Shown piece by piece: positions 3,094 through 33,890 of a stretch of 46,028 bases of DNA (positions are counted from its first letter, which is position 1; every line of letters begins with the position of its first letter). The DNA comes from a virus. The translations under genes were made by a program, and so were the position numbers. The DNA is taken from IMG/VR virus record IMGVR_UViG_3300045927_000164, positions 1 to 46,028 of that record; one strand, given 5' to 3'. Below the pieces are notes generated by a model. The model was not told where the DNA came from and did not search any database. It worked only from the letters and a program-made list of their open reading frames with translations.

Positions 3094-4623
3094 ATGCTGC
3101 TCGAGTCCCTCTTCGGCGGTCGGGTCGCCGCCAGCACGCGCGATGCGGCGAGTCCGCACTGGTGGGGCGGGCTCGACCCCATGAGCGCGGCCGGGATGCC
3201 GGTGACCGACGAGACGTCGATGCGGGTGTCGACGGTGTTCGCCGCCCTGCGCGTCCTGTCCTGGTCGCTGGCGTCGGTGCCGCTGATTACCTACCGGCGG
3301 ACCGCCGACGATCGGGGCAGCGAGCGCGCCAAGGACCTGGGCCTCTACAGCGTCCTCCGGCGTCGCCCGAACCGCTGGCAGACGTCGTTCCAGTGGCGAT
3401 CGATGGGGATGGTGCACGCGCTGCTTCGCGGCAACTTCTTCAACCGGATCGTGTCGGGCCCACGGGGATTCGCCGACCAGCTGCGGCCGCTGATGCCCGA
3501 CCACACGCGCCCCGTCGACCAACTCCCCGACGGCAGGCTCGTCTACCTGCACACGCCGAGCAACAGGCCCGAGGAGCGCCTGACGAGCGATGAGGTGCTG
3601 CACATCCCGGGCCTCTCGCTGGACGGGATCAGCGGGGTGTCGGTGATCACCGCCATGCGGGAAGGCGTCGGCCTGGCGCTCGCGCAGGAGCGGTACGGCG
3701 CCAGCCAGTTCGGCCGGGCGCCGAAGATGGCCGGGCTCCTGAAGCACCCGGCGGTGATGAAGCCGCAGACCGCGCAGCGCGTCGCCGAATCGTTCCGGCG
3801 CGCGAACGCTGGCCCGGCGAACTGGCACAGCGTCGCGGTGCTCGAAGAGGGGATGGAGTGGGTCTCGACCGGCATGAACGCGAAGGATGCCGAGTTCATC
3901 CTGTCGCGGGATTTCCAGATTTCCGAGTTCCTGCGCTTCCTGGGCGTGCCCGGGGTGATGGTGGGGTACGCGGACAAGACAGCGACCTACGCGTCGGCCG
4001 AGCAGTTCTTCCTATCGTTCGTGACGTATTCGGTGGGCGGGTGGGCCGTCAACTGGGAGCAGAAGTTCGACACCGAACTGATCCTCGAGGAGGACCAGGA
4101 GACGGTCTTCACGAAGTTCGTCCTCGATGGCCTGAAGCGCGGCGACCTGAAGACGCGGTTCGAGGCCTACGAGCGCGGCATCACGAATCAGTTCATGACG
4201 CCGAACGAGGCGCGCGCGTTCGAGGACTGGAACCCGCTCGAGGGCGGTGACGAGGTGGTCGAGGCGCCGGCGCCGTCGGCGCCGCCCAGCAACGGGGCGA
4301 ACGAACGGGCCCGGGCCATCGCCCGCAGCGCCGCCGAGCGCGTTGTGCGGAAAGAAGTCGAAGCGATCCGCGCCAGGACCTCTACGGTGCAGGACACGCC
4401 GGAGCAGCTGCACGCCTGGCTCACAAAGTTCTACGAGGGCCACGTGCGGATGGTGCAGCAGGTGCTGTGTCTGACGGGCGCGCAGGCGTGGGGGTACGTT
4501 TACGCGCAGCGTGAAGCCGTGCTCGCCGATCCGGCGTGCATGTCGACGTGGGAAGAGCAGCTCGTGCCGCGGCTCGCGGCGCGGGCGTTGGGGGAGGAGG
4601 AGAGGGATGCCGCCGCTGCCTGA
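3094..4623 (+). CDS. Portal protein (HK97 family)
   Basis: A 509-aa portal that forms the dodecameric ring at the head vertex, through which DNA enters and leaves. The N-terminus has the typical pattern: an alternating hydrophobic start, then VTDETSMRVSTVFAALRVLS and SLASVPLITYRRT. Central motifs include TAMREGVGLALAQERY, FILSRDFQISEFLRFLGVP and the stem/crown region EQFFLSFVTYSV. A strong Shine-Dalgarno (AGGAGGAG) precedes the ATG. The C-terminus is alanine/proline-rich, then a helical extension. The last 17 nt overlap the protease gene. Confidence 0.93.
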   Translation: MLLESLFGGRVAASTRDAASPHWWGGLDPMSAAGMPVTDETSMRVSTVFAALRVLSWSLASVPLITYRRTADDRGSERAKDLGLYSVLRRRPNRWQTSFQWRSMGMVHALLRGNFFNRIVSGPRGFADQLRPLMPDHTRPVDQLPDGRLVYLHTPSNRPEERLTSDEVLHIPGLSLDGISGVSVITAMREGVGLALAQERYGASQFGRAPKMAGLLKHPAVMKPQTAQRVAESFRRANAGPANWHSVAVLEEGMEWVSTGMNAKDAEFILSRDFQISEFLRFLGVPGVMVGYADKTATYASAEQFFLSFVTYSVGGWAVNWEQKFDTELILEEDQETVFTKFVLDGLKRGDLKTRFEAYERGITNQFMTPNEARAFEDWNPLEGGDEVVEAPAPSAPPSNGANERARAIARSAAERVVRKEVEAIRARTSTVQDTPEQLHAWLTKFYEGHVRMVQQVLCLTGAQAWGYVYAQREAVLADPACMSTWEEQLVPRLAARALGEEERDAAAA

Positions 4624-5494
4624 TTTCGCACCGTCCCTGAGCACGCTCGCCTATCGCCCCTGGGCCATTGACCAGCCGTGGCTGCAGCGGGCGTTCGAGC
4701 TCTCGCTACACGCCGAGCGCGAGTCCGACGAGGCGCAGGTCGCGGCAGTCACCGCGAACACGCGGCGCGGGGTCGTCGCAGTGATTCCCATCAGGGGGAC
4801 GATCGCGCCGGGGTATCGCGGCATGACGTCGCCGGCGGCGCTCGTCACTGCGGTGCGGATCGCCGTGGCTGACCCGGGCATCAGCGGCATCGTGCTCCAT
4901 GTCGACAGTCCTGGCGGATCGGTCGCCGGTCTGCCCGAGGCTGCCGATGCCATCAGGCATGCGCGCGGCGCGAAGCCCATCGTGGCGCAGGTCGATACGC
5001 TCGCCGCCTCAGCGGCCTACTGGCTGGCGGCGCAGGCGGACGAGATCGTCGTGACGCCGAGCTCAGAGGTTGGGAGCATCGGCGTGTTCACGGCCCACTT
5101 CGACTTCTCGAAGATGCTCGACACCGTGGGCCTGAAGGTCACCTGGATCTTCGCCGGCCGCTACAAGGTCGAGGGCAACCCTGCGGAACCGCTCCAGGAG
5201 GATGCTCGCGTCCATCTGCAGAGTCACGTGGATCACTACTACGGCATGTTCGTGTCGGCGGTCGCGAAGGGGCGCGGCGTTGGCGTCGAGCAGGTCCGGA
5301 AGGCCTGGGGCGAGGGACGGACGGTCACCGCGCAGGATGCCGTCGACCGCGGGATGGCCGACAGCGTCGGGACGCTCGAGGAGACGATCCGGCGCGTCGG
5401 GCGCGGGAAGACGTCGGCACCCGTACCTGCGGCCGCCGCACAGGACTCGTGGCGAGCTCGTCGCCAGCGGATGAGGGAGCTCGTCGCTGGCTGA
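4607..5494 (+). CDS. S49 (SppA/protease C-like) head maturation protease
   Basis: A 295-aa serine peptidase expected to cleave the capsid scaffold during prohead maturation. The core shows VDSPGGSVAGL (about 99-109), then TLAASAAYWLAA with the likely catalytic Ser135, and GRYKVEGNPAEPL with the likely Lys187, the S49 Ser-Lys pair. The ATG at 4607 follows a GGAGGAGGAGAGGG Shine-Dalgarno and lies inside the portal 3' end; the open frame upstream is shadow of the portal. No separate scaffold gene follows; the capsid N-terminus seems to supply that role. Confidence 0.92.
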   Translation: MPPLPDFAPSLSTLAYRPWAIDQPWLQRAFELSLHAERESDEAQVAAVTANTRRGVVAVIPIRGTIAPGYRGMTSPAALVTAVRIAVADPGISGIVLHVDSPGGSVAGLPEAADAIRHARGAKPIVAQVDTLAASAAYWLAAQADEIVVTPSSEVGSIGVFTAHFDFSKMLDTVGLKVTWIFAGRYKVEGNPAEPLQEDARVHLQSHVDHYYGMFVSAVAKGRGVGVEQVRKAWGEGRTVTAQDAVDRGMADSVGTLEETIRRVGRGKTSAPVPAAAAQDSWRARRQRMRELVAG

Positions 5495-5567
5495 GAACTA
5501 GCCCTGGCGTGGGGTAACTTGTCAGTCGAGGCAAAGGTCCGCGGGAGGGTGACTTTCCACGGGATAA

Positions 5568-5585
5568 TCCACAACCTATTGTGGA
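5568..5585. promoter_or_regulatory. Operator-like dyad upstream of a promoter
   Basis: The perfect inverted repeat TCCACAA-ccta-TTGTGGA (7-bp arms) lies about 40 bp upstream of the TTGACA at 5625. It could be a regulator binding site or a small RNA hairpin. No regulator can be assigned. Confidence 0.45.
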
Positions 5586-5624
5586 CATTGGAAGTTGTGG
5601 CGCCTATATCTGGCCCGAGAGGCC

Positions 5625-5653
5625 TTGACATGTGTGTCACACGAGCGCATGAT
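5625..5653 (+). promoter_or_regulatory. Sigma70-like promoter
   Basis: TTGACA (5625-5630), a 17-bp spacer, then CATGAT (5648-5653; 4 of 6 to TATAAT). The perfect -35 and ideal spacing stand out in a GC-rich non-coding stretch. It would start a transcript containing the hairpins at 5690-6015 and the 52-aa gene. Host promoter rules are unknown, so this is a prediction. Confidence 0.45.
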
Positions 5654-6064
5654 GGCGCGTCGCTGGGGCGGTACGGAGAAACGGCCGCCGGGTGTTAGCG
5701 CACCTCGACGGCCGAAGGGAACGATTAGCAAGCCAGAGCGTATCCTCGCGCTCGGCTCCGCGTCAAGGTCAGCCCGCGGGATCCTTCCTCAGAGCCACCA
5801 ACAGCGAGCTGTAGGTCCGACGACGCTCGGGGTGTGGACTTCGGTGCAACTCGGCCGGAAACGGTCGCGCCGGCGCGAGGCTACCTTGAGCTGAGGACGT
5901 AACGAGCACGGCAGCCTGCCAGCTGCCGTGCCGTCGGCGTGTGACGATCGCGCCGTTCGCGATTCGGTGCCGCCTCCCGGAGACGAAGTTTATCGTCTCA
6001 CACGGGACACCGTGTCAAGAGTAATCGGATCGTCGCCTCGCGATCTTGATTCCCGAGAGGAATC

Positions 6065-6223
6065 ATGATCACTCGCACTCGCTCGAAGGACCGGCAGGTC
6101 CCGCGCGCCGTGGGGCCCACGTTCGAAGGGTTCTACGTCGTCGTGTGGAATCACTGGGCCGGGCGCTACCTCGATGCGCGCGACTACGGGTATAAAGCCT
6201 GGCCCGTAGGCAAGCGTAGGTAA
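6065..6223 (+). CDS. Small basic protein, 52 aa, in its own transcription unit
   Basis: The ATG at 6065 follows GAGAGGAATC (good Shine-Dalgarno) and the frame stops at TAA 6221-6223. The protein has a basic N-terminus (MITRTRSKDRQVPR), an aromatic middle (FEGFYVVVWNHWAGRYLDAR) and a basic end (YKAWPVGKRR). I know no matching family. It is the only good gene in the 1-kb gap between protease and capsid. A promoter-like site precedes it and a terminator-like hairpin follows directly, so it looks like a classic moron. Its high content of aromatic and basic residues would suit nucleic-acid binding, but that is a guess. Confidence 0.6.
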   Translation: MITRTRSKDRQVPRAVGPTFEGFYVVVWNHWAGRYLDARDYGYKAWPVGKRR

Positions 6224-6224
6224 G

Positions 6225-6277
6225 GGGCGCTGGTCGCCGCGGTCGGCCAATCGATCGGCCGCCGCGGCGCCCTCTTT
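6225..6277 (+). terminator. Terminator-like hairpin after the 52-aa gene
   Basis: GGGCGC (6225-6230) can pair with GCGCCC (6267-6272). CCGCG and GGCC arms inside are closed by an AATCGATC loop, with small bulges, and TCTTT follows. It begins right after the stop codon at 6223. The T-tract is short, so termination may be partial. Confidence 0.55.
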
Positions 6278-6309
6278 GGCAAGGCGAGTCAACAGCATCG
6301 GAGGTGCCC

Positions 6310-6339
6310 TTGACAGGATCCGAGGACCGCGCCTACGCT
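6310..6339 (+). promoter_or_regulatory. Possible promoter for the capsid gene
   Basis: A TTGACA at 6310-6315 with TACGCT at 6334-6339 (18-bp spacing, 3 of 6 in the -10) lies after the terminator-like hairpin and about 210 bp before the capsid ATG. Weak -10, so modest support. Confidence 0.35.
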
Positions 6340-6436
6340 AATCACCGTAGTCGGTTGCGCCTGCACGGAATCTGGCGGCGTCCATTGACCCGCTGAGCAC
6401 TGGAGACAGGCCCCACAGCGTCACGCGCTGTCCATT

Positions 6437-6508
6437 GACACGCGGGCACGTGGTTCCCAGACCGCAGAATCGTTTTGCTGCGACCTGGGCGCTTCGTGCC
6501 CGCGTGTC
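6437..6508 (+). promoter_or_regulatory. Long three-stem hairpin in the capsid 5' leader
   Basis: Perfect 14-bp arms (6437-6450 with 6495-6508; left arm GACACGCGGGCACG) enclose two more collinear stems: CCCAG/CTGGG (6456-6460/6485-6489) and GCAG/CTGC (6464-6467/6478-6481), with loop AATCGTTTTG. The structure ends 39 nt before the capsid ATG. It may protect the mRNA, control translation, or bind a regulator. Confidence 0.6.
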
Positions 6509-6547
6509 GCGTGTACGGCGCCTGAGAGTCGCAACGGAGACACCACG

Positions 6548-7909
6548 ATGCGACTCAAGGCCCTGCTTGACCGGCGCGCCAAGCTCACCGCCGAGGCCAA
6601 GGCGATCTTCGACCTGGCGGCCAAGGAAAACCGCGACCTCACCCAGACCGAAAAGGATCGCGACGACGCGATCGAGGCCGAGCTCGCCACGGTCAACGCC
6701 GAGATCGACCGTGAGCAGCGCCAGCAGCAACGCGACCTGGCGGTCTCCTCGCAGCGGATCGCCACCACCGGTACCGGCACCGGCGCCTCCGGGCAGGCCA
6801 TCCAGCAACCGCAGCGTGACCAGCACGGGCGCGTGATCGTCGGCCAGTCCGGTGACGAGCGCCGGATGCAGGACCCGATGCTCGGGTGGCGCGACGTCGG
6901 CGAGTTCGCGATCGCCGTGCAGACGGCCTGCCGTCCCGGCGGCGCCGTCGACCCCCGTCTCGCCACGCCGGTCCCCCAGCCGGGCGCGGCGCCGACCGAC
7001 TTCCATCGCGAGACGGGCTCGACCGATGGCTACATGGTCCCGCCGCAGGCCAGGCAGGAGATCTACCAGATCGCGTTCAACGATCCCCTGCTCGACCTGA
7101 TCACGCGCGAGCCGACGACCAGCAATTCGGTCGACCTGCTCGCCGATGAAACGACGCCCTGGGGCGCGACGGGCGTCCAGGCGCGGTGGCGTAGCGAGGG
7201 GACGCAGATGACGCCCTCGCGCCTGGTCACCGACCCGCGGCGGGTCATCGCGCACGAGCTGTACGCGTTCGTCCTCGCGACCGGTGAGCTCCTGCAGGAC
7301 GCGCCGCGGCTCGCCTCGCGACTCACGCTCCGCGCCGGGCAGGCGATCCGCTGGAAGCTCGGTGCAGCCTTCATGCGCGGCACCGGCGCAGGCCAGCCCC
7401 TGGGCTGGCTCAATGCGGGCGCCCTCGTCACGCAGGCGGCGACCGACAACGGCAGCCCGGCGGTCAACCTGACCGCGCTCAACGTCGCCGAGATGTACTC
7501 GCGCATGCTGGCGGACTTCATCGGCCAGGCCGTTTGGGTGGCCAACACCGACGTGCTGCCCTCACTCATCACCCTGCGGCTCGGCGAGAACACGATCTGG
7601 ACGCCGCCCGCGACGGGCATCGCCCAGGCGCCTGGCGGGTTCATCGTCGGCCGGCCGCTGATGTTCAGCGAGCACTGCGCGACCGTCGGATCGGTGGGCG
7701 ACCTCCAGTTCATCGCGCCGGCAGGCTACTACGCCACGCAGCGCGGCGAGCTCGAGAGCGCCAGCTCGCTGCACCTGTTCTTCGACTACAACGTCGAGGC
7801 GTTCCGCTGGATCATCCGCGTCGGCGGCATGCCGTTCCTGTCCGCGCCGGTGTCGCCCGCGTATGGGAGCAGCACGAAGAGCCATTTCGTCGCCCTCGCC
7901 GCGCGGTAA
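6548..7909 (+). CDS. Major capsid protein (HK97 fold) with N-terminal delta domain
   Basis: The 453-aa shell protein has a helical, charged N-terminus (about 1-70, for example LTQTEKDRDDAIEAELATVN) like the scaffold-type delta domain of HK97 gp5, then a polar linker (about 75-105) where the S49 protease probably cuts. The shell domain starts near TDGYMVPPQARQEIY. Typical features are LVTDPRRVIAHELYAFVLAT (E-loop/spine helix), QAIRWKLGAAFMRGTGAGQP, GGFIVGRPLMFSEHC and the P-domain end FRWIIRVGGMPFLSAPVSPA. The leader contains the hairpin at 6437-6508. Confidence 0.93.
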   Translation: MRLKALLDRRAKLTAEAKAIFDLAAKENRDLTQTEKDRDDAIEAELATVNAEIDREQRQQQRDLAVSSQRIATTGTGTGASGQAIQQPQRDQHGRVIVGQSGDERRMQDPMLGWRDVGEFAIAVQTACRPGGAVDPRLATPVPQPGAAPTDFHRETGSTDGYMVPPQARQEIYQIAFNDPLLDLITREPTTSNSVDLLADETTPWGATGVQARWRSEGTQMTPSRLVTDPRRVIAHELYAFVLATGELLQDAPRLASRLTLRAGQAIRWKLGAAFMRGTGAGQPLGWLNAGALVTQAATDNGSPAVNLTALNVAEMYSRMLADFIGQAVWVANTDVLPSLITLRLGENTIWTPPATGIAQAPGGFIVGRPLMFSEHCATVGSVGDLQFIAPAGYYATQRGELESASSLHLFFDYNVEAFRWIIRVGGMPFLSAPVSPAYGSSTKSHFVALAAR

Positions 7910-7974: not shown

Positions 7975-8415
7975 ATGGAAACGCCGAACGTGCTCCCCTC
8001 GAAGCGGGGATCGACCATCGACCTCATCCCGCCGCAGTCGGTCACCGGCACCAGCGTGTCGACGGGCTGGGTGGACATGTCGACGCGGCAGGCGGTGCAA
8101 GCCGTCGTCAACGTCGGGGTGATCTCATCGAGCGGCGTCGTGAACGCGAAGCTCGAGCAGACCACGAGCGATGGGGGATCGGCGGCCGACGTGACCAGCA
8201 AGGCCATCACCGCGCTCACGCAGGCCGGCAGCGACAGCAACAAGGGCGCGATTCTCAACTGCCGGAGCGACGAGCTCGACGTCAACAACGGCTATCGCTG
8301 GGTCCGCCTCACGATCACGGTCTCCGGCGCCGCGGCGCTGGTCTCCGGGGTCCTGCAGGCCTTCGATCACCGCTACGCCTCTTCGCTCGACAGCGCGATC
8401 GATTCCGTCAACTGA
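7975..8415 (+). CDS. Probable head decoration/accessory protein, copy 1
   Basis: A 146-aa beta-rich protein starting METPNVLPS after an AAGGAG Shine-Dalgarno. It shares its start, the block NCRSDELDVNNG and the FDHRY end with the next gene, so the two are tandem paralogues. The place directly after the capsid gene suggests a decoration or minor head protein bound to the shell, but no named family was recognised. The upstream open frame is shadow of the capsid gene. Confidence 0.7.
   Translation: METPNVLPSKRGSTIDLIPPQSVTGTSVSTGWVDMSTRQAVQAVVNVGVISSSGVVNAKLEQTTSDGGSAADVTSKAITALTQAGSDSNKGAILNCRSDELDVNNGYRWVRLTITVSGAAALVSGVLQAFDHRYASSLDSAIDSVN
8255..8291 (+). repeat. 37-nt direct repeat, copy 1
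   Basis: The 37 bases encoding the conserved NCRSDELDVNNG block are identical to 8763-8799 in the paralogous gene, while surrounding DNA has diverged. Confidence 0.9.
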
Positions 8416-8455: not shown

Positions 8456-8944
8456 ATGGAAACGCCCAACATCCTCCCATCGACGCGCGCGCCGATCGTG
8501 GCCGCCGTCTTTCCGCATGCGTCGCCTGCGGGGGTGCAGTCCCCGCCGACGCTCCAGACCGCGTATGTCGGGCTCGACGAAGTCGGGTCGGTGCTCGCAC
8601 GGGTTCTGTACGGCGTCATCGGCGCCGGGCAGATCGTCGGCGCCTCGCTCCTGCAGGCGACGGACGCCGAGGGCACGGGCGAGAAGGCGATCACCGGTAA
8701 GGCCAGCACCCTGGCTCCCGTCGGCGCCGCGAGCCCGAGCGAGGACAACGGGCTCCTCGAGATCAACTGCCGGAGCGACGAGCTCGACGTCAACAACGGA
8801 TTCTGCTTCGTCAAGCTCGTCGTCACGGTCACCGACGGATCCCCGGTGCCATCGCCCGCGGAGAGCACGCCGCTCGCCGCGTGGATCGAGGTGTTCGATC
8901 ACCGGTATCCGCCGACATCGATCGCGGCGGAGACGATCGAGTAG
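8456..8944 (+). CDS. Probable head decoration/accessory protein, copy 2
   Basis: A 162-aa paralogue of the preceding protein: METPNILPS start, NCRSDELDVNNG block, VFDHRYPP near the end. The middle is diverged, with a proline-rich insert (PVPSPAESTP). A 37-nt stretch (8763-8799) is identical to 8255-8291, so this block is either recently duplicated or still recombining. Function as for copy 1: a shell accessory by position only. Confidence 0.7.
   Translation: METPNILPSTRAPIVAAVFPHASPAGVQSPPTLQTAYVGLDEVGSVLARVLYGVIGAGQIVGASLLQATDAEGTGEKAITGKASTLAPVGAASPSEDNGLLEINCRSDELDVNNGFCFVKLVVTVTDGSPVPSPAESTPLAAWIEVFDHRYPPTSIAAETIE
8763..8799 (+). repeat. 37-nt direct repeat, copy 2
   Basis: Identical to 8255-8291. 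Complete identity inside two otherwise divergent genes suggests gene conversion or strong constraint. Confidence 0.9.
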
Positions 8945-20744: not shown

Positions 20745-20842
20745 TCGCAACACGAAGGTTCCCCTAGGCGTCCGCTGATCACGGGCGCGACGAGGTCTGA
20801 GCCTCAGGCCGGGGACACCCACAGGGGGCAGGCGAGCTCAGA

Positions 20843-21126: not shown

Positions 21127-22944
21127 ATGAGCGGACATTTCCCGCGCCTGACGCCGCCCGGCGACCTGGTCGTGTCCGGGCACGACGTCATCGAGCTCGA
21201 GCGCGAACCGATCGCGCCGCTCGAAGGCGACCAACTCCCACACGGGACGTCGCCGGAGTGGTTGTCCGCCAGCCAGATCCAGGCCGAGTCGAACGCGATC
21301 CTCTACACCTACCAGGGCGGCGCCCACGACGGCGCGCTGATGGAGGCCCGCGGTCCGGACTACATCCCGCAGATCATCGGTCGGAGCGGGAACGTCATCG
21401 CCGCCGGTGGCGGCCGGTGGACCGTCTTCGAGGTGGTGCCGAGCGCCGGGCCCTGCCTGCGCTTCGACGACTCGACCATCTGGGCCGGCTACCAGGCGCC
21501 GGCCTGGAACGATGACGGCATCCTCTTCGCCTGCACGCAGCACGCGACCGGGCTCCTGCTCGCGGGCCGGCCGACAGCCATGCAGATCGTGCCGGGGCTC
21601 ACGGGGCAGCCGGTGCTCGGCGCACGCGAGCCGGCCTGGCGGTACGGGGCGCTTTGCTGGGAGGCTGGAACGCGCGTCTACGGGCGCGTAACGGGAGACG
21701 CCCCGAGCGAAGACCTCACGCTTGCGGAGTGGGAAGCAAAGCCGATCCCGATCCGCACGCCCGGCGGCTGGTGGCTGCTCTCGCACGACCAGACGCGCGT
21801 GCTGCTGCGGCCCTGGGGCTCGAGCCGCGGGTACGTCGTCTTCGCCGGCGATTCGGACGGGCCGCACGATGCGCGCTGGGACCGCTTCACCGAGACGATC
21901 CGCGTGGTGTGGTCGGTCAAGGGCCGGCTGCACGACGCCCGTTTCCGGATCGACGGGGCGCTCGAGTCGCTCGTCGACGAGCCCTTCGTCGTCGACCCGA
22001 CAGGCGTCATCGAGGACACGCTCCCGCACGTCCTCGGGCCCTATCCCGCGATGGCGCGGCCGGACTGCGCCACCTTCATCAAGAGCCTGACCGACGCGGC
22101 GTATGCCGAGTGGTGGTCATTCGACCCGTCGCGCATCTATCACGAGTTCGATCGCACGCGCCAACCTGGTGACCTTGGCTGGTATCTCGAGCCGCTCCCG
22201 CTCTGGCTGCCGCGGCGCGTGCAGACCGGGTCCACCTGGGCTTTCGAGGGGGAGATTGTTGATCTCGGCGGAACGCCGGCGCCGGCCGGAGTTCATCCCT
22301 TCGAGTTTCTCGCCCGGATAGACGTGGCCGCGAGCGGCACACTCGGCGGCCGGCCAATCGCGTTCGTCCACACCTACGACCCGCGACGTCGCGAAGCAGA
22401 CTCCACCGTACGCCTGAAGGGCGGATACGAGAAGTTCATCTACGGCCGGCCGGAAGACGGCCTGCTGCGGTGGGAGTACTGGCGCACGAAAGACGACAAC
22501 AGCGGCGACGAGCTGGTCCACTCGGCAGACGCTGGCTTCCCGAAGGGCCAGACGTCACTGACCCCGCTGCCGTCGCCGCGTCCACCCGATGACGAGGACG
22601 ACATGCCTGGCTATCCCGACCTGCAGCCGATCCCGCGCGACCAGCTCCTCGACACGCTCGACTGGCTGCGCTTCGAGGTCTACACACCATCCCAGGAGGA
22701 TGAGCGCCCGGGCGAGCATCCATTCCGGCTCGTCCCCCACCCGCTCGACGACGAAGGGATCGCGGCGTGGCTCTGCGACGCCTACGAGAGCGTCGGCCGC
22801 TACCGGTACGGCCTCAGTCACCAGGCGGCCAAGGACTACGTCTATCGGGAGATTCAGAAGGTCGTGTCGCCTCCCGACCCGGTGCCACCACCGCAGGTCA
22901 TCAGCGCGCCGATCCATGTGGCCGCAAGGGACTTCGTCCGATGA
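21127..22944 (+). CDS. Large uncharacterised late protein, possible fibre/host-interaction
   Basis: A 605-aa protein rich in W, G and D. It has repeated short strands around 45-270 that could form a beta-propeller-like fold (for example PAWNDDGILFACTQHATGLL, PGGWWLLSHDQTRVLLRPWG). A central segment (about 310-370: IYHEFDRTRQPGDLGWYLEP) looks enzyme- or receptor-like. A proline/acidic linker (PLPSPRPPDDEDDMP, about 480) precedes a helical C-terminus. No signal peptide. It ends in ATGA coupling to the beta-helix gene. I do not recognise the family. Confidence 0.55.
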   Translation: MSGHFPRLTPPGDLVVSGHDVIELEREPIAPLEGDQLPHGTSPEWLSASQIQAESNAILYTYQGGAHDGALMEARGPDYIPQIIGRSGNVIAAGGGRWTVFEVVPSAGPCLRFDDSTIWAGYQAPAWNDDGILFACTQHATGLLLAGRPTAMQIVPGLTGQPVLGAREPAWRYGALCWEAGTRVYGRVTGDAPSEDLTLAEWEAKPIPIRTPGGWWLLSHDQTRVLLRPWGSSRGYVVFAGDSDGPHDARWDRFTETIRVVWSVKGRLHDARFRIDGALESLVDEPFVVDPTGVIEDTLPHVLGPYPAMARPDCATFIKSLTDAAYAEWWSFDPSRIYHEFDRTRQPGDLGWYLEPLPLWLPRRVQTGSTWAFEGEIVDLGGTPAPAGVHPFEFLARIDVAASGTLGGRPIAFVHTYDPRRREADSTVRLKGGYEKFIYGRPEDGLLRWEYWRTKDDNSGDELVHSADAGFPKGQTSLTPLPSPRPPDDEDDMPGYPDLQPIPRDQLLDTLDWLRFEVYTPSQEDERPGEHPFRLVPHPLDDEGIAAWLCDAYESVGRYRYGLSHQAAKDYVYREIQKVVSPPDPVPPPQVISAPIHVAARDFVR

Positions 22945-24497
22945 CGCGACCTGCCGCACTCCTGTTCGGGCTGCTCGCCACGGGCCAGCCGACGCCTACG
23001 TACTACGTGGCGCCGACCGGGAGCCAGACGAGCACGTGCGAGTCGGCCGAGGCGCCGTGCTCGCTCGAACGCGCGGTCGAGCTGTTGAACGCGGGATCCA
23101 TCGCGCCAGGGTCGATGGTGCTCCTCCGGTTCGGAACCTACAGCCCGCCGCGGCTCGTGCTGGCTCGTGGCGGGACAGCCCCGGCGCCGATCAGGTTCGT
23201 CGCGGAGCCAGGCGCGCGCCTGGCTGGCGTGTCGGCGCGCCCTGGGCCGTGGACGCGCGCCGCTGGTCGCCAGTACGTCTGGCAGGCGCCGCTCCCGTTC
23301 CCTGGCGTCGGCACGGTCGCGCAGCTCGACGCGACGACCTGGCAGCCCTGGCTCGTCGACGACAGGCTCGGCCGTGCGCCGACCGTCTCCCTCGGGCGGC
23401 CATTCACTCTGCTCGTTCCGCCCATGTACGCGCGCCGGAGCGACGTCGCGCAGGTCGAGGCGCAGAGCTGCACGTGGACCGCCGACGACACCACGCTCAG
23501 CGTGCATATGTGCCACGACGGTCCGCCGGCACCGGAGGACGACCTTCGAGTCGGGACGGCGACCGCAGGCCAGCTCGCCATCGCTGGCGACCACCTGACG
23601 ATCGAGGGCCTCGCCGTGGCCTACGTCAGCGGCAGTGGGATCAAGATCGAGACGAGCGCGACCGGGACGGTCCTCCGGCGGGTCACGGCGCTCGCCACGC
23701 AGGTCTGGATGGAGGGCAGCGGCACGCTGGCCGAGGACCTCCACGCTTCGCACAACATCAGGCAAAGCCCGCTGCCGAACCCAGACTGCACCGAGGCGAC
23801 CGACGTCAATCCGAGCTTTGGGATTGGGGAGTGCTTCCATTCCGGCGGCGACCGGCTCGCGCTCCTGATGGGGCGCCAGCGCTCGACGCGCCAGTACAAC
23901 CAGGCGTGCGTGCGCTGTCGCGTCGATCGGAGTTGGAACCTCGCACACATCGCGGGCCGCAACACTGTGATCGACTCTGAGTTCTGGGGGGCGCCAAACC
24001 ACTGCATCACCGCGTCGGACACGGGCGTGACGTTGACGGGCAACGCCGTCCTCAACTGCCAGGACAGTCTCTACCTCGGGCATGACGGCTTCGACGAGCT
24101 GACCGTCGAGCGCAACGTCTTTGCGGGCGCGACGTACATCACATCATCCAGCGGGGGCACGGGCGGGGCGCCCGTTACGGGGTGGACGTTCCGGCACAAC
24201 GTGCTCACGCGGCTGACGGTGGATCGCTGGGCGTTCGACGCGATGACGAGCGCGTGCAACGTCTTCATGGGCACGGCGCCAGCGCTGCGGCTCATCGCCA
24301 CGAATGGGATCCCTGGCCGGACGTGGCAGACGCTGGCCGACGCGCAGGCGAGCGGGCTTGAGCCAGGAAGCAAAGCGCTTCCGCCGTCGTCGTGGACGAG
24401 CGGTTCGATGTTCGCGCGGTTCACCGGACAGGCGGATCCGGTGTTCGACTTTCGCGACCCGCTGACGGTGTGCGGTGCGCGCGCGGGGATCCAGTGA
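22941..24497 (+). CDS. Exported right-handed parallel beta-helix protein (tailspike/depolymerase-like)
   Basis: A 518-aa protein with a short signal-like N-terminus (MTRPAALLFGLLATGQP), then TYYVAPTGSQTS, the usual entry to a pectin-lyase-type helix. The coils contain ALAIAGDHLTIEGLAVAYV-type strands, GSGIKIETSATGTVLRRV and NTVIDSEFWGAPNHCITAS. About twelve cysteines in pairs (for example CESAEAPC, ACVRC) suggest disulfides and hence export. It could degrade or bind host polysaccharide. A signal peptide is unusual for a virion spike. Coupled to neighbours by ATGA and TGATG overlaps. Confidence 0.65.
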   Translation: MTRPAALLFGLLATGQPTPTYYVAPTGSQTSTCESAEAPCSLERAVELLNAGSIAPGSMVLLRFGTYSPPRLVLARGGTAPAPIRFVAEPGARLAGVSARPGPWTRAAGRQYVWQAPLPFPGVGTVAQLDATTWQPWLVDDRLGRAPTVSLGRPFTLLVPPMYARRSDVAQVEAQSCTWTADDTTLSVHMCHDGPPAPEDDLRVGTATAGQLAIAGDHLTIEGLAVAYVSGSGIKIETSATGTVLRRVTALATQVWMEGSGTLAEDLHASHNIRQSPLPNPDCTEATDVNPSFGIGECFHSGGDRLALLMGRQRSTRQYNQACVRCRVDRSWNLAHIAGRNTVIDSEFWGAPNHCITASDTGVTLTGNAVLNCQDSLYLGHDGFDELTVERNVFAGATYITSSSGGTGGAPVTGWTFRHNVLTRLTVDRWAFDAMTSACNVFMGTAPALRLIATNGIPGRTWQTLADAQASGLEPGSKALPPSSWTSGSMFARFTGQADPVFDFRDPLTVCGARAGIQ

Positions 24498-28087: not shown

Positions 28088-30552
28088 GGCGATGGCTCGC
28101 GGCCGTCGCGGTCTTCGCTGCGTGCGTGATCTGGTCCTGGATGCGGCGCCGTCGGTACCTCGCTGGCGTGGCTGGCGTCGATGGCGTCAGTGACGGCGTG
28201 TGCAGCGGAGGTGGACCGTGCCATCGTCCGCTGATCGGCGCACTTGCCGCGCTTGTGTTGTGCGGAGGGCAGGCGGCGGCCCAGGAGCACTACCCGCTGG
28301 AGTTACTCTCGCCGACGGCCATTGGCGCTGCGGGGACTGGGCACGACGCCGACAACCGGATGTACCGGCAGTACACGGGTATCCCCTACGCCTTTCGAGC
28401 GTTCGCGACGGGTGGCACATGGCCCTACACCTGGACGATCTCAGGACAGCCGTCTGGCATGACCATCGTGACGGGCCCGTGTACCGCCGCCGACGGCACC
28501 TGCACGGACGGGCTGATCGAATGGGCGAGTCCGACCGCCGGCACGCATTCCAACATTCAGGTGTGCGTGAGCGACGACGACGAGCAGGACTGTGAAACCT
28601 TCTCGCTGACGGTGGGCACGTCCGGATTCGTGTTTCTCGACGCCGACGACGGCAACGACACCACGGGCAGCGGAACGCTCGCGTCGCCGTGGCAGACCAT
28701 CAGTAAGGCCAGAGCCAGCGGCGGCGCCAACAGCTTCGTCTATCTGCGCGGGGCGACGGCGAAATACAACTTCGCGGGCATCACCGGCACGACAAGCCTG
28801 GACTGCGGGACGGGCGTCGCGGGCACGCGCGTCGTGTTCACCGAGACGTCGCAGCCGGTGATTTTCGTCGGCTACCCCGGCGAAACCCCATTCATCGACC
28901 ACACCGGCGGCGGCGTCTCCCCCGCGCCGTGCTGGTCCCTCGTCGGTGACAACATCTATCTGAGCAACCTCTCGTTCGAGAATTGCGCGTCGCAGTGTAT
29001 CCGGACTGGCGTCACCAACAGCTTTGGCGCGCACTATCACAATCTCGACTTCGGCAACCGCGGCCCGGGCTGCAACGAATGCAACTCGTCCGCGTTCATG
29101 TTCTCGCGACTGGATCCAGGCGGGTACGCCTACGGGACCGTGATCCAGAATGTCCGCGACACCGACGTCGAGTACGGGTCCGCCAACTCGTTTCTGAAGG
29201 CCTACACTCTCGTCAAGCCGGTTTTTCAGCAGATCATCATCTCCGACGTGCACACCCGCACGGCCGAGGCGGAGGCGCTGATTGCGCTGAAGGACGGCGC
29301 GGCGCAATTCACGGTACGCGATTCGCAGTGCATCGACACGACGGACAACTGGCCGATCCAGGTCATGTGTCTAGGCGGCGGCATGCACAGCGACACGACG
29401 GGCGGGCAGGACACGTACGGCGAGATCTACTTCAACCAATTCCTCCTGCCAGACGGCGCATCGGCGCTGTTCAATCTCGATTCCGAGGCGAGCCCGACGA
29501 TCTACTCGTACCGCAACACCTACCTCGGCACGGTCACGCTGTGGAACGTGGATAGCGACGACGGGCCGTTCTCGTTCGTGCGCGACGTCATCGTGAATAG
29601 CGATTCGGCCGACACGCCATTCAATGGCTTCAACTGGGCGACGAGTGGTAGTGCGGGGGGCTCATGGCTCGGCACACAAGATCAGTCGCGCGTCACGATC
29701 ACGAGCGCGCTCGTGTGCGCGCCCGCCGACGGCTGCACCGACGCCGACGGATTCCTGATCGGGTCGGCGTTGACGAACCACGGTCCAAACTCGGCCACTC
29801 CGAAGGGCCACATGATGGAGGCCGCCGAGGCGTCACCAAGCTACTCAGCGCGGCGATTGAGTCGTATCGCCAGAGCGTTGCCTAGCGCGCCTCGCGAACG
29901 TGAGGCCAAGGCCGAGGCTGAGCAGCCACAGCGTCGAAGTTGGCTCAGGAACGCGGAAGGGCGAACCGTCGCGGACGGCCCACGCCAACGACTGACTCCC
30001 GGGGTCGGAGAGGTCAGTGCCAAAGATGTGGTTCCATTCGTTGTACGAATCGTCGAGCCAGACGGACCGCGCGTGCCAATTTACAAAGGGACCGGTCGTG
30101 CCTTGGTGATACGTGGAAGAAGTGGGCTCGTCGGGGTTCTCCAAATACCAATACCAGCCGAGCTGTGCGGCCATCACGGTCATTTCGGATCGGCCGTGCT
30201 CCCAGCCACCGCCGAAGTAGCGAGGCAGTCGCCAATCATCGAATCCGCCAAACTCAAGCTGAGCGACCCAGTCGAAGGCGCCGAAGCCCCAGACGAACAG
30301 CCCATCGAGTCCAGGGTCCACATCCAGGCGTTGCCGTTCGGCGTCCACGCCTTGATAGCCCGTCGTCATGACATAGGCCGCGTCCTGCAGCCACGTGAGG
30401 TCCTGCACCGTGTCGTAGATCATGCCGTTGCCGAGATCAATCAGATCGGCACGTGCGACGCCAGGCGCAGCGGTGAGGAGACCGACGACCAGCACGAAGA
30501 CGGGGCGTTGCACGGTAGTCCTCCAATCAAAGCGCTGAGGCGGACAGGCTAG
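28084..30552 (+). CDS. Exported beta-helix protein with an abnormal read-through C-terminus
   Basis: Open for 822 codons, but only about the first 580 (to about 29826) look like a genuine protein. There is a hydrophobic start, a second signal-like segment (GALAALVLCGGQAAAQ, about 52-67; an alternative start is GTG 28198), an Ig-like domain (GGTWPYTWTISGQPSGM), then FLDADDGNDTTGSGTLASPW and beta-helix coils with many paired cysteines (GCNEC, NCASQC, VCAPADGC). After GPNSATPKGHMMEAAEA the frame is antisense to the PEP-CTERM gene. The original stop was probably lost at a recombination joint. Confidence 0.6.
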   Translation: MRRWLAAVAVFAACVIWSWMRRRRYLAGVAGVDGVSDGVCSGGGPCHRPLIGALAALVLCGGQAAAQEHYPLELLSPTAIGAAGTGHDADNRMYRQYTGIPYAFRAFATGGTWPYTWTISGQPSGMTIVTGPCTAADGTCTDGLIEWASPTAGTHSNIQVCVSDDDEQDCETFSLTVGTSGFVFLDADDGNDTTGSGTLASPWQTISKARASGGANSFVYLRGATAKYNFAGITGTTSLDCGTGVAGTRVVFTETSQPVIFVGYPGETPFIDHTGGGVSPAPCWSLVGDNIYLSNLSFENCASQCIRTGVTNSFGAHYHNLDFGNRGPGCNECNSSAFMFSRLDPGGYAYGTVIQNVRDTDVEYGSANSFLKAYTLVKPVFQQIIISDVHTRTAEAEALIALKDGAAQFTVRDSQCIDTTDNWPIQVMCLGGGMHSDTTGGQDTYGEIYFNQFLLPDGASALFNLDSEASPTIYSYRNTYLGTVTLWNVDSDDGPFSFVRDVIVNSDSADTPFNGFNWATSGSAGGSWLGTQDQSRVTITSALVCAPADGCTDADGFLIGSALTNHGPNSATPKGHMMEAAEASPSYSARRLSRIARALPSAPREREAKAEAEQPQRRSWLRNAEGRTVADGPRQRLTPGVGEVSAKDVVPFVVRIVEPDGPRVPIYKGTGRALVIRGRSGLVGVLQIPIPAELCGHHGHFGSAVLPATAEVARQSPIIESAKLKLSDPVEGAEAPDEQPIESRVHIQALPFGVHALIARRHDIGRVLQPREVLHRVVDHAVAEINQIGTCDARRSGEETDDQHEDGALHGSPPIKALRRTG
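29845..30513 (-). CDS. PEP-CTERM protein with DUF1566-like domain (lysogenic cargo)
   Basis: A 222-aa protein on the minus strand. The GTG start at 30513 follows GGAGGACTACC. A signal peptide (RPVFVLVVGLLTAAPGVARA) leads to a DUF1566/Lcl-type body: DLTWLQDAAYV, FDDWRLPRYF, WYWYLENPDE and QSLAWAVRDG. The C-terminus VPEPTSTLWLLSLGLGLTFA then RRARQR is a PEP-CTERM tail (PEP box, TM helix, basic end). Such proteins are processed by exosortase in exopolysaccharide-forming Gram-negative bacteria. The gene abuts attP, so after integration it would sit at the prophage end. Confidence 0.8.
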   Translation of the reverse strand: MQRPVFVLVVGLLTAAPGVARADLIDLGNGMIYDTVQDLTWLQDAAYVMTTGYQGVDAERQRLDVDPGLDGLFVWGFGAFDWVAQLEFGGFDDWRLPRYFGGGWEHGRSEMTVMAAQLGWYWYLENPDEPTSSTYHQGTTGPFVNWHARSVWLDDSYNEWNHIFGTDLSDPGSQSLAWAVRDGSPFRVPEPTSTLWLLSLGLGLTFARRARQRSGDTTQSPR

Positions 30553-30570
30553 CACGGCCGGAGCACACGC

Positions 30571-30597
30571 CCAGGCGGGCATGGCCCCTGCGCCTGG
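30571..30597. repeat. Inverted repeat upstream of the PEP-CTERM gene
   Basis: CCAGGCG (30571-30577) and CGCCTGG (30591-30597) form perfect 7-bp arms. The right arm is part of a direct repeat shared with 30812-30838. It may be an integrase arm site or regulatory element. Confidence 0.5.
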
Positions 30598-30605
30598 CCC
30601 CGTCG
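30579..30605 (+). repeat. 27-nt direct repeat, left of attP core
   Basis: Matches 30812-30838 at 25 of 27 positions. The two copies flank the tRNA-derived core, one on each side, as expected for integrase arm-type sites or a recombination scar. Confidence 0.6.
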
Positions 30606-30638
30606 TGATTCTGGTGTGAATCGTGCTGGTTGGTTCGC

Positions 30639-30682
30639 TTCCCAAGCCAGTTAGACGGGTTCGATTCCCGTAGCCCGCTCCA
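30639..30682 (+). other. attP core: 3' half of a tRNA-Gly(CCC) gene
   Basis: TTCCCAA is a tRNA anticodon loop with CCC. GCCAG, the 3' side of the anticodon stem, follows, then a perfect T-arm (ACGGG-TTCGATT-CCCGT), acceptor strand AGCCCGC, T and CCA. No 5' half precedes it, and CTGG upstream only partly mimics the missing stem. Phages carry such 3' tRNA halves so the host tRNA is rebuilt on integration. The integrase stop codon is 5 nt away. Confidence 0.85.
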
Positions 30683-30687
30683 CCACA

Positions 30688-31911
30688 TCACCCCCTGGTT
30701 TTCAGCGATTTTCGGCCCTGCCCATAGGCCGCGGCGGCGCGGCCGACTTTCTTGCGACCCTCGCGCACATCCCCGATTTTGTTGCTCGGTCGTTCCGTGC
30801 GTCTCGCGCGCGCATGGCCCCGGGGCCTGGCCCCGTCGAGGGTTGCGACCACGCTCCGCAGGCGATCAGGGACCGCGCCCATCGTGTAGCGCATCGCGGT
30901 CTCGAGCGTGACGTCGAGCAGCTCCGCGGCGGCGCGCAGGTCGCCCGTCTGCCGATAGACCGTCGCACCGAAGGCGTGCCGCGCATCGTAGGGCCGCAGC
31001 TGTAGCGGCGGGCGACCAGCCCGGGCGCGCACCGTGTTCAGCGCCTCGAGGGCGCGGCTGAACACGCGGAAGAGCGTCGCCTTCGCCACGCCACCGAGCT
31101 GCAGCGCGCCTCGCTCGGCGTCCACTGTCGCGAAGGCTCGCTGCCGCGCGTACTCGCCAAAGGCGCGCACGCCCTCCTCGGTCAGCGGGAGGGTGCGGCT
31201 GACGGTGCCCTGGCCCTTCTGCCGGCCCAGGATGAAGACGGTCCGCGCCTCGAGGTCGACATCCTCGGCACGCAGGAGTCGGATGCGCGCCGGTGGCAGG
31301 CCGGTGGCGCTCATGACCCACCACAGCGCGCGCGCCTTCCCCGGATACATTGCGCGGAGCAGCTGCTTCCGCGTCTCGGCGTCGATGTCGCGCGCCTCGA
31401 GTGCCGGCGGGCGCTGGTGGTCGGTGTCGCGCGCGGGGTTCGGCAGGTCGCCATCCGCGTCGAGCGCATCGAAGAGCGCGATGAGCGCCTGGCGCCGATG
31501 GTTGCACGTGACCGCGGCCACGTCAGCCTCCCGCCACTCGTGCAGCTGCGCGTTGAGTTCTGCGGTCGCGAGCTCGAGCCGTGAGCGGTCGCCAAAGCGC
31601 GGCAGCCAGGCGCGGAGATCAGAGCGGCGCGAGCCCCAGGAGGGCATCGCGGTGACGGTGGCGAGATAGGCCTCGACGTCGCCGGCGAGTGTGCCGCGCG
31701 CGGCGCGACGGAGCGGCTGCTTTGCGCGGAGTTGCTTCCGCGTCAGCGCCTGCCAGTCGCGGATGACCGCGAAGTTCGCCCCGAAGGGGAAGCGCTTCTC
31801 CTTCGTGCGCGCATGCGGCGACGTCCCGACTTGGACGCACGCGGCGTAGCCTCGATCGTCGCGGTAGATGCCAGGCGCGACACGGACGCGAGGACCTCTA
31901 TTCCGCGGCAC
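30688..31911 (-). CDS. int: Tyrosine recombinase (integrase)
   Basis: A 407-aa site-specific recombinase. An N-terminal arm-binding region (about 1-75) leads to a core-binding SAM-like domain (GDVEAYLATV to FDALDADGDLPNP) and the catalytic domain. Recognisable boxes are ALWWVMSATGLPPARIRLLR, LGRQKGQGTVSRTLPL, RPYDARHAFGATVYRQTGDL and LLDVTLETAMRYTMG with nucleophile Tyr. The usual first Arg after TG-L is Pro, and the box III His/Trp position is Val, so the active site is atypical. It ends next to attP and starts inside the upstream small gene. Confidence 0.85.
   Translation of the reverse strand: MPRNRGPRVRVAPGIYRDDRGYAACVQVGTSPHARTKEKRFPFGANFAVIRDWQALTRKQLRAKQPLRRAARGTLAGDVEAYLATVTAMPSWGSRRSDLRAWLPRFGDRSRLELATAELNAQLHEWREADVAAVTCNHRRQALIALFDALDADGDLPNPARDTDHQRPPALEARDIDAETRKQLLRAMYPGKARALWWVMSATGLPPARIRLLRAEDVDLEARTVFILGRQKGQGTVSRTLPLTEEGVRAFGEYARQRAFATVDAERGALQLGGVAKATLFRVFSRALEALNTVRARAGRPPLQLRPYDARHAFGATVYRQTGDLRAAAELLDVTLETAMRYTMGAVPDRLRSVVATLDGARPRGHARARRTERPSNKIGDVREGRKKVGRAAAAYGQGRKSLKTRG
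30812..30838 (+). repeat. 27-nt direct repeat, right of attP core
   Basis: Matches 30579-30605 at 25 of 27 positions and lies inside the 3' end of the integrase gene (minus strand). Confidence 0.6.
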
Positions 31912-33000: not shown

Positions 33001-33281
33001 GGGAGGCTCACGCGTGGATCAGCCGCGGCGCCGGCGCGCGCGCGGCGCCGCACCTCAGCGCATGCTCGCCGCCTCATCCCCACGGCGTACTTCGCGCCAA
33101 CCGATTCGGCGGGACGGGCGGACTGCGCCGCGATCGAGCCAGCGATCGCCGCCGCGCGATAGAGAGGTTCCTCGAGCTCGGTGACCGTGGTGTCCTGCCC
33201 CTTGTATCCCTGACAAGTGCTCCCGAACTGTCCGCGGATCACTCGGCCGCCAGGTTCCGTGCTGTCGAGTGTGGCCGTCAC
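32994..33281 (-). CDS. Small protein coupled to the repressor
   Basis: A 95-aa protein starting at GTG 33281, which overlaps the repressor stop as GTGA. It reads TATLDSTEPGGRVIRGQFGS, then CQGYKGQDTTVTELEEPLYR, and ends in an Arg-rich tail. It overlaps the membrane protein gene by 7 nt. No family recognised. Tight coupling suggests a repressor-associated function. Confidence 0.5.
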   Translation of the reverse strand: MTATLDSTEPGGRVIRGQFGSTCQGYKGQDTTVTELEEPLYRAAAIAGSIAAQSARPAESVGAKYAVGMRRRACAEVRRRARAGAAADPRVSLPC

Positions 33282-33790
33282 TCGTCTCCTTTTCCCTCCG
33301 TGCCCGTTGAGGAGATGCCACTGGCCATACGCCTGGCGAGATCCACTATCGCCAGCGCGAACGCCTTGCGGTCCTGCGGGCGCTCCAACAATTGCCACGC
33401 TAGGGTCGCGGCGGAAAACAACAGTCCCCGATCAGGCAGGTCCAGCATCGTGCGTACGTCCTCCGTGAGACGGCGGCTCGATGCAGAATCGTCAACCGGT
33501 TCCGTTTTCTGTAATGCCAGAGCTTCGTCGTCACCTGGCTTGCCGAGTAACTCCGCAGAGAGCTCGGCCAGGAGTGCTCCGGGTTCCACGTGCGCCAAGC
33601 GCGCATACGCCCAGACCACATCCGGCGGGGGAACCCGTCCACCCTCCCACTTCGCGATGTAGGACCGGTCCGCCTGGACTCCCAAACGATTGAGCGCCTG
33701 AGCGATCTGGCCGCTCGTGCGTGTCCCTCGCAGCGCCTCAAGGGTTGCTCCAAACCGTGCGGCGCGCCTCGTCGGCTTCCTTCCGGCCAT
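33278..33790 (-). CDS. XRE-family lysogeny repressor
   Basis: A 170-aa protein with an N-terminal helix-turn-helix (about 14-62): FGATLEALRGTRTSGQIAQA, then LNRLGVQADRSYIAKWEGGR with the W-E-x-G-R end typical of XRE repressors. The C-terminal part (about 75-160) is helical with no LexA-like Ser-Lys protease motif, so induction may not go through RecA-stimulated self-cleavage. It is transcribed away from the Cro-like gene. Confidence 0.8.
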   Translation of the reverse strand: MAGRKPTRRAARFGATLEALRGTRTSGQIAQALNRLGVQADRSYIAKWEGGRVPPPDVVWAYARLAHVEPGALLAELSAELLGKPGDDEALALQKTEPVDDSASSRRLTEDVRTMLDLPDRGLLFSAATLAWQLLERPQDRKAFALAIVDLARRMASGISSTGTEGKGDE

Positions 33791-33890
33791 AGCTTGCCTA
33801 GTAACGGTAACGGAGCGACGGGCTGAAATTGACGCCCCTTGTTAGAAAATGGGTTGACATGTGGCAGCGAGTAGCTTTATGGTCTGCCAT
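33791..33890. promoter_or_regulatory. Lysis-lysogeny switch region
   Basis: A 100-bp space between divergent regulators. It contains a direct repeat GTAACG-GTAACG (33801-33812), a plus-strand TTGACA (33854-33859) with a weak TTATGG -10 (33877-33882), and the start of the palindrome TGCCATATGGCA (33885-33896). Operators for the XRE and Cro-like proteins are expected here. Confidence 0.6.
33854..33882 (+). promoter_or_regulatory. Early rightward promoter (PR-like)
   Basis: TTGACA, 17-bp spacer, TTATGG. The start site would fall near 33889, next to the ATG at 33891, giving an almost leaderless transcript. Confidence 0.55.

Follow-up and report, generated by a model that had tools for sequence, protein, structure and literature searches.

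A kilobase of mostly non-coding DNA between the protease and capsid genes of an HK97-type phage, at a junction where relatives carry unrelated cargo

Background

What occupies the 1053 bp (5495-6547) that separate the S49 head protease gene from the HK97-type capsid gene in the phage studied here? The window, by which we mean the whole virus record of 46,028 bases (GC 0.68), carries a gene row of terminase, portal, S49 protease and HK97-type capsid, as identified by Pfam and PHROG, and the gap lies between the last two (Table 1; the protease ORF is given in its longest form, the choice of start codon being provisional). The GC content of the gap is 0.64, against 0.68 for the window, a difference for which non-coding DNA may account. 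An earlier note on this DNA had described the gap as a self-contained moron with a large structured RNA leader; the term moron now also covers gene insertions (PMC6316719). On balance, and with modest confidence, we favour the reading that the gap has two parts: a moron-type insertion of the ordinary kind, at a site that repeatedly takes up cargo, and after it a distinct leader of the capsid gene with a promoter and a hairpin of its own.

A phage integrase gene (30688-31911, minus strand) together with a weak HTH_31 match, just under the Pfam cut-off (33278-33790, minus strand), suggests that the phage is temperate. Adjoining the integrase, also on the minus strand, 29848-30645 encodes a protein with weak matches to Lcl_C and PEP-CTERM, just under the Pfam cut-offs, which is possibly a lysogenic-conversion cargo gene. 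A portal-based search for the closest virus found none, and searches of phages and plasmids for DNA homologous to the gap returned chance-level matches only. We rejected a replication origin as the content of the gap, which holds one DnaA-like 9-mer (with one mismatch) and no genome-wide extreme of the cumulative GC skew.

Table 1. Features of the gap and its two borders (positions in the window)
Feature	Position	Strand	Properties
S49-family head maturation protease ORF, left border	4511-5494	+	Pfam Peptidase_S49, E 3.6e-39; phrog_53
7-bp dyad TCCACAA-N4-TTGTGGA	5568-5585		exact; single copy in the window
Promoter-like site TTGACA-N17-CATGAT	5625-5653	+	10/12 matches
Non-coding stretch; with a real promoter, a leader would begin here	5654-5902	+	folding not beyond chance; codon scores negative
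Cluster of five short perfect hairpins	5903-6070	+	z -4.9 for 5903-6075; nowhere else in the window are perfect hairpins so dense
Hairpins of the cluster	5906-5931, 5947-5963, 5980-5999, 6000-6015, 6047-6065	+	stems of 6-10 bp, within 165 nt
52-aa ORF (ORF52), possible cargo gene	6065-6223	+	codon score 0.14; GC3 0.83; GAGAGG 4 nt upstream
Stable G+C-rich hairpin with short TCTTT tail, terminator-like	about 6228-6275	+	-33.9 kcal/mol within 6225-6285
Second promoter-like site TTGACA-N18-TACGCT	6310-6339	+	9/12 matches; 239 nt before the capsid ATG
Imperfect 72-nt hairpin just before the capsid gene	6437-6508	+	inverted repeat I1; 31-nt arms, 81% complementary
HK97-type major capsid protein ORF, right border	6548-7909	+	Pfam Phage_capsid, E 3.9e-36; phrog_10

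Results and discussion

The protease-capsid junction in relatives

Relatives were collected by aligning the capsid with that of a Bradyrhizobium phage (A1), which yielded 16 genome loci and 80 viral-contig loci; the only close capsid match among the viral contigs is the same virus. After removal of near-identical capsids, 82 loci containing both genes were left, in which the median spacing between protease and capsid is approximately 98 bp, compared with the 1053 bp of the window. The earlier statement that the two genes normally abut thus describes the typical relative, but about one in five departs from it, with 15-16 of the 82 reaching 300 bp or more; in one locus (L034) a second S49 ORF lies in the gap, so that the true spacing is approximately 117 bp and 15 loci remain rather than 16. 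A gap of at least 300 bp occurs between portal and protease in only one of 75 loci, and between the capsid and the next gene in none of 73, the latter count being biased low because any ORF of 90 codons was accepted.

The extra DNA at the protease-capsid junction of these relatives measures 0.3-3.3 kb, and its contents differ: CopC with CopD, a NUDIX protein, an HTH protein together with a protein of two transmembrane segments (2TM), a DUF2971 protein and several inserts to which no family could be assigned. Judged by these comparisons, the junction is a recurrent cargo site with unrelated cargo in different relatives. Closest in kind to the window are six Bradyrhizobium-type prophages (L025, L027, L079, L080, L081 and L084), which share its capsid and protease family and carry a variable insert of 0.9-3.3 kb at the same junction; unlike the window, several of them contain identifiable genes with other functions, in some cases encoded on the opposite strand, and none of their inserts has sequence similarity to that of the window. 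That DNA was inserted at this junction in the window itself we infer from comparison with relatives whose capsids are at most about 53% identical to its own (the same virus excepted), none of which is an empty-site sister.

Two of the relatives' inserts may be described more closely. The 3.3-kb insert of L084 (3192-5527 of that locus), whose capsid is of the Bradyrhizobium type, encodes CopC and CopD, which are of copper-resistance type, and also a 334-aa protein without a Pfam match. At the junction of L055 (4726-5484, minus strand), the DUF2971 protein matches PDC-S31, a candidate defence family of PADLOC, with an E value of 4.3e-17.

Promoter-like sites and the one candidate gene

The first promoter-like site, which the earlier note had picked out, is present as described and is by our count exceptional for this genome: plus-strand sites with ten of twelve promoter matches number two in 46 kb, where shuffled sequences give an expectation of 0.15, and the other lies at 33854, beside the HTH gene. 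The second site, also noted earlier, was likewise found, with an expectation of 0.02 in a stretch of 320 nt. Upstream of the first, the dyad noted earlier is exact and has no second match in the window even when three mismatches are allowed (0.62 expected by chance); it is a possible protein-binding site, while the idea of a repeated operator was dropped in view of its single occurrence in the window. The hairpin that had been called terminator-like is indeed very stable, but only TCTTT follows it, and a terminator scan of the window did not list it, since it fails the T-run rule. The promoters and the terminator of the gap are resemblances in sequence, not measured starts and ends of transcripts.

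That the gap is mostly non-coding, as the earlier note had held, was borne out by a score for codon usage, for which 14 of the window's ORFs served as the training set; in 52-codon chunks it is 0.46 ± 0.21 per codon in true frames and -0.49 ± 0.43 in wrong ones, and so distinguishes the two on average. ORF52, whose score is intermediate, is the only candidate gene within 5495-6547; the other ORFs tested in the gap score like non-coding sequence in sliding windows. A hidden or decayed gene was also sought by Pfam and PHROG scans of the gap ORFs and rejected, ORF52 being all that these and the codon windows yielded.

The ORF exists with the good ribosome-binding site that had been attributed to it, but its intermediate codon score leaves its standing as a gene less secure. 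Its product would be basic (pI 10.6). A search for relatives of the 52-aa protein, which the earlier note had proposed as a check, found none in phage records, plasmid records or viral contigs, and neither Pfam nor NCBIfam contains a matching family. The weak similarity to phrog_37304 (20 residues, E 0.002) was set aside as a family assignment, for that profile gives chance-level matches only in 50 related records and rings in four of 14 control genomes. The predicted structure has a mean pLDDT of 56 and no usable fold. Compared with the rest of the gap, the codon score and GC3 of ORF52 lean towards coding sequence, and it may be a real gene.

A strong hairpin in the capsid leader

Two stretches of the gap, both missed or under-weighted in the earlier note, fold beyond chance. 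The stronger is the 72-nt hairpin, which belongs not to the moron-like unit but to the capsid leader that follows it: the 150-nt window that covers it (at 6401) has a z of -4.4 to -4.9, the lowest of 459. A second viral-collection contig (L003/L031) is 100% identical to the window over 5,443 bases and ends at position 6464. This independent contig thereby stops inside the hairpin, which looks like an assembly stop at the palindrome.

Is such a leader peculiar to this phage? We folded the 113 nt running through the capsid start codon in the relatives and, as a control, a stretch inside the capsid gene; z fell below -2 at 24 of 95 loci and in 6 of 95 control stretches, counts that are not fully independent because near-duplicate loci are included. 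In several relatives the pre-capsid hairpin is followed by T-rich sequence, which that of the window lacks. The window and the other non-duplicate loci whose gaps reach 150 bp or more, 27 in all, have 8 promoter-like sites in the last 320 nt before the capsid, where 1.4 would be expected; two of the eight come from the AT-rich L092, in which chance alone gives 0.74. In Bradyrhizobium prophages with different inserts, the last 110 bp or so before the capsid are 93-97% identical. A literature search on pre-capsid hairpins returned nothing relevant.

A rival account makes the gap a late-gene control region of the capsid operon and nothing else: ORF52 would be no gene, the upstream transcript would end in the gap, and a separate promoter and leader hairpin would serve the capsid. 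In its favour, the second promoter-like site and the strong hairpin belong with the capsid, several relatives (L055, L103, L037 and L065) have both a strong hairpin and a promoter-like site at approximately 190-240 nt from the capsid start, and ORF52 has no relatives. However, the account has no need of the promoter-like site at 5625 or of 800 bp of further DNA, where typical relatives make do with some 98 bp, and the codon score of ORF52 falls on the coding side of the gap. We regard it as unlikely.

A structured stretch before ORF52

The second stretch that folds beyond chance is 5903-6075, with a z of -4.9 and none of 200 dinucleotide-preserving shuffles as good; the 150-nt window at 5901 ranks fourth of the 459 by folding excess. 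The preceding 5656-5902 has a z of -0.77, with 47 of 200 such shuffles as good, sliding windows over 5500-5850 are near zero, and the z of -3.0 for the whole of 5656-6064 is owed mainly to 5903-6075. Of the roughly 400-nt structured leader that had been proposed, only the last part folds beyond chance, the initial 250 nt being no better than their shuffles; what structure there is takes up less of the gap than had been described and sits in a different place. The stems listed there, including a GAAA-capped hairpin and a long-range pairing of 5763-5774 with 5879-5889 (which contains a bulge), can be drawn, but they lose their support because the region is unremarkable against shuffles.

Could the cluster be a new functional RNA? 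It might regulate ORF52 in cis, or it might be the end of an RNA that acts in trans. The folding excess of the cluster and its five perfect hairpins in 165 nt are in keeping with this, and the last of the five takes in both the ribosome-binding site of ORF52 and its start codon. Against it, the minus strand folds equally strongly, as expected of palindromic DNA sites (the same holds for the window at 6401), and the predicted accessibility of the ORF52 start lies within the range of this phage's other genes. Occlusion of the start codon was accordingly discarded as a strong claim, and because accessibility is typical of the genome, translational control of ORF52 is no more than possible, as is a cis-regulatory RNA in the gap more generally.

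Searches for a known or related RNA point the same way. With Rfam, no match in the gap reached gathering thresholds, and at E values of up to 5 only two MIR7486 matches and one Actino-ugpB match appeared, all far below cut-off; the MIR7486 match on the capsid-leader hairpin we take to be a chance match to a long hairpin, because both strands score. A covariance model built from the single sequence 5903-6075, searched against 94 sources (approximately 1 Mb of related loci), recovered itself with an E value of 5.6e-45, and its next best matches, at 0.045 and above, are chance-level, so no homologue was found; single-sequence models being weak probes, this is absence of evidence and not proof. 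An exact-pattern search for the hairpin at the ORF52 start found none, and one for the 5906-5931 hairpin found the same arms in a viral contig (L119) that has no other similarity, which we took as coincidence.

GOLLD and ROOL have phage associations. With OLE, they are large ornate bacterial RNAs (PMC12286853). The window resembles them in that it is phage DNA with a hairpin-bearing non-coding stretch, and differs in that no Rfam family reaches its cut-off, that only about 165 nt fold beyond chance and that homologues were not found. For want of a match, we have rejected GOLLD, ROOL or any other Rfam RNA as the content of the gap. A functional RNA of either kind at 5903-6070 seems to us quite improbable, and its more specific form, a previously undescribed phage RNA element (an ORF52 riboregulator or a trans-acting RNA) that is part of the moron, is if anything a shade more doubtful.

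Least probable of all is that the gap is what is left of an older insertion, now decayed or neutral and without its original gene or genes, in which the hairpins and the ORF are remnants or due to chance: most of it is non-coding and resembles nothing in the collections searched, and other family members hold full cargo genes at the junction, but no gene remnant was recognised (a PHROG scan of the three plus-strand frames and two minus-strand ORFs gave only the weak ORF52 match), and the promoter-like site and hairpins exceed chance.

Elsewhere in the window, folding excess was also observed in the 150-nt windows at 20801 (z -4.6), 11101 (z -4.3) and 45601 (z -3.6). Two successive post-capsid genes carry a 75-bp direct repeat, 80% identical (8255-8329 and 8763-8837), and are probably related. 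ARAGORN predicts a tRNA-Leu (CAG) at 23534-23631 on the minus strand, inside a long plus-strand ORF (22767-24497), which may be a false positive.

A probable moron-type insertion followed by a capsid leader

We return to the moron-type insertion with its separate capsid leader. The layout proposed in the earlier note has held up in outline: extra DNA lies between genes that are usually close together in relatives, and it contains a small orphan ORF set between a promoter-like site and a terminator-like hairpin, then a second promoter-like site, at a junction where relatives carry unrelated cargo. In these respects the gap resembles a phage moron. It is unlike one in that most of the insert, 5495-6060, is non-coding, which is unusual for a moron, and in that the termination signal is weak, the hairpin having no proper T-run; ORF52, with no homologue and an intermediate codon score, also counts against this reading.

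The steps of transcription, termination and translation are those that we infer from the sequence elements. A host sigma-70-type promoter at 5625 would give rise to a short, mostly untranslated mRNA carrying one small gene, for a basic protein of 52 residues, and this mRNA would end at the hairpin near 6275. Translation of ORF52 may be restricted by the cluster of hairpins, the last of which reaches its start codon. A promoter at 6310 would then restart transcription, such that the capsid gene, whose product is needed in quantity, is served despite the insertion, and the 72-nt hairpin before it could act as an element of mRNA processing, stability or attenuation.

Interest in the cargo of the window itself, a small orphan gene, is limited and would grow only if its leader were shown to be a regulatory RNA. 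The recurrent junction is a place in which to seek host-fitness genes, and possibly defence genes, in this HK97-type family, and the pre-capsid hairpin suggests that its members may share a means of keeping capsid expression independent of the inserted cargo.
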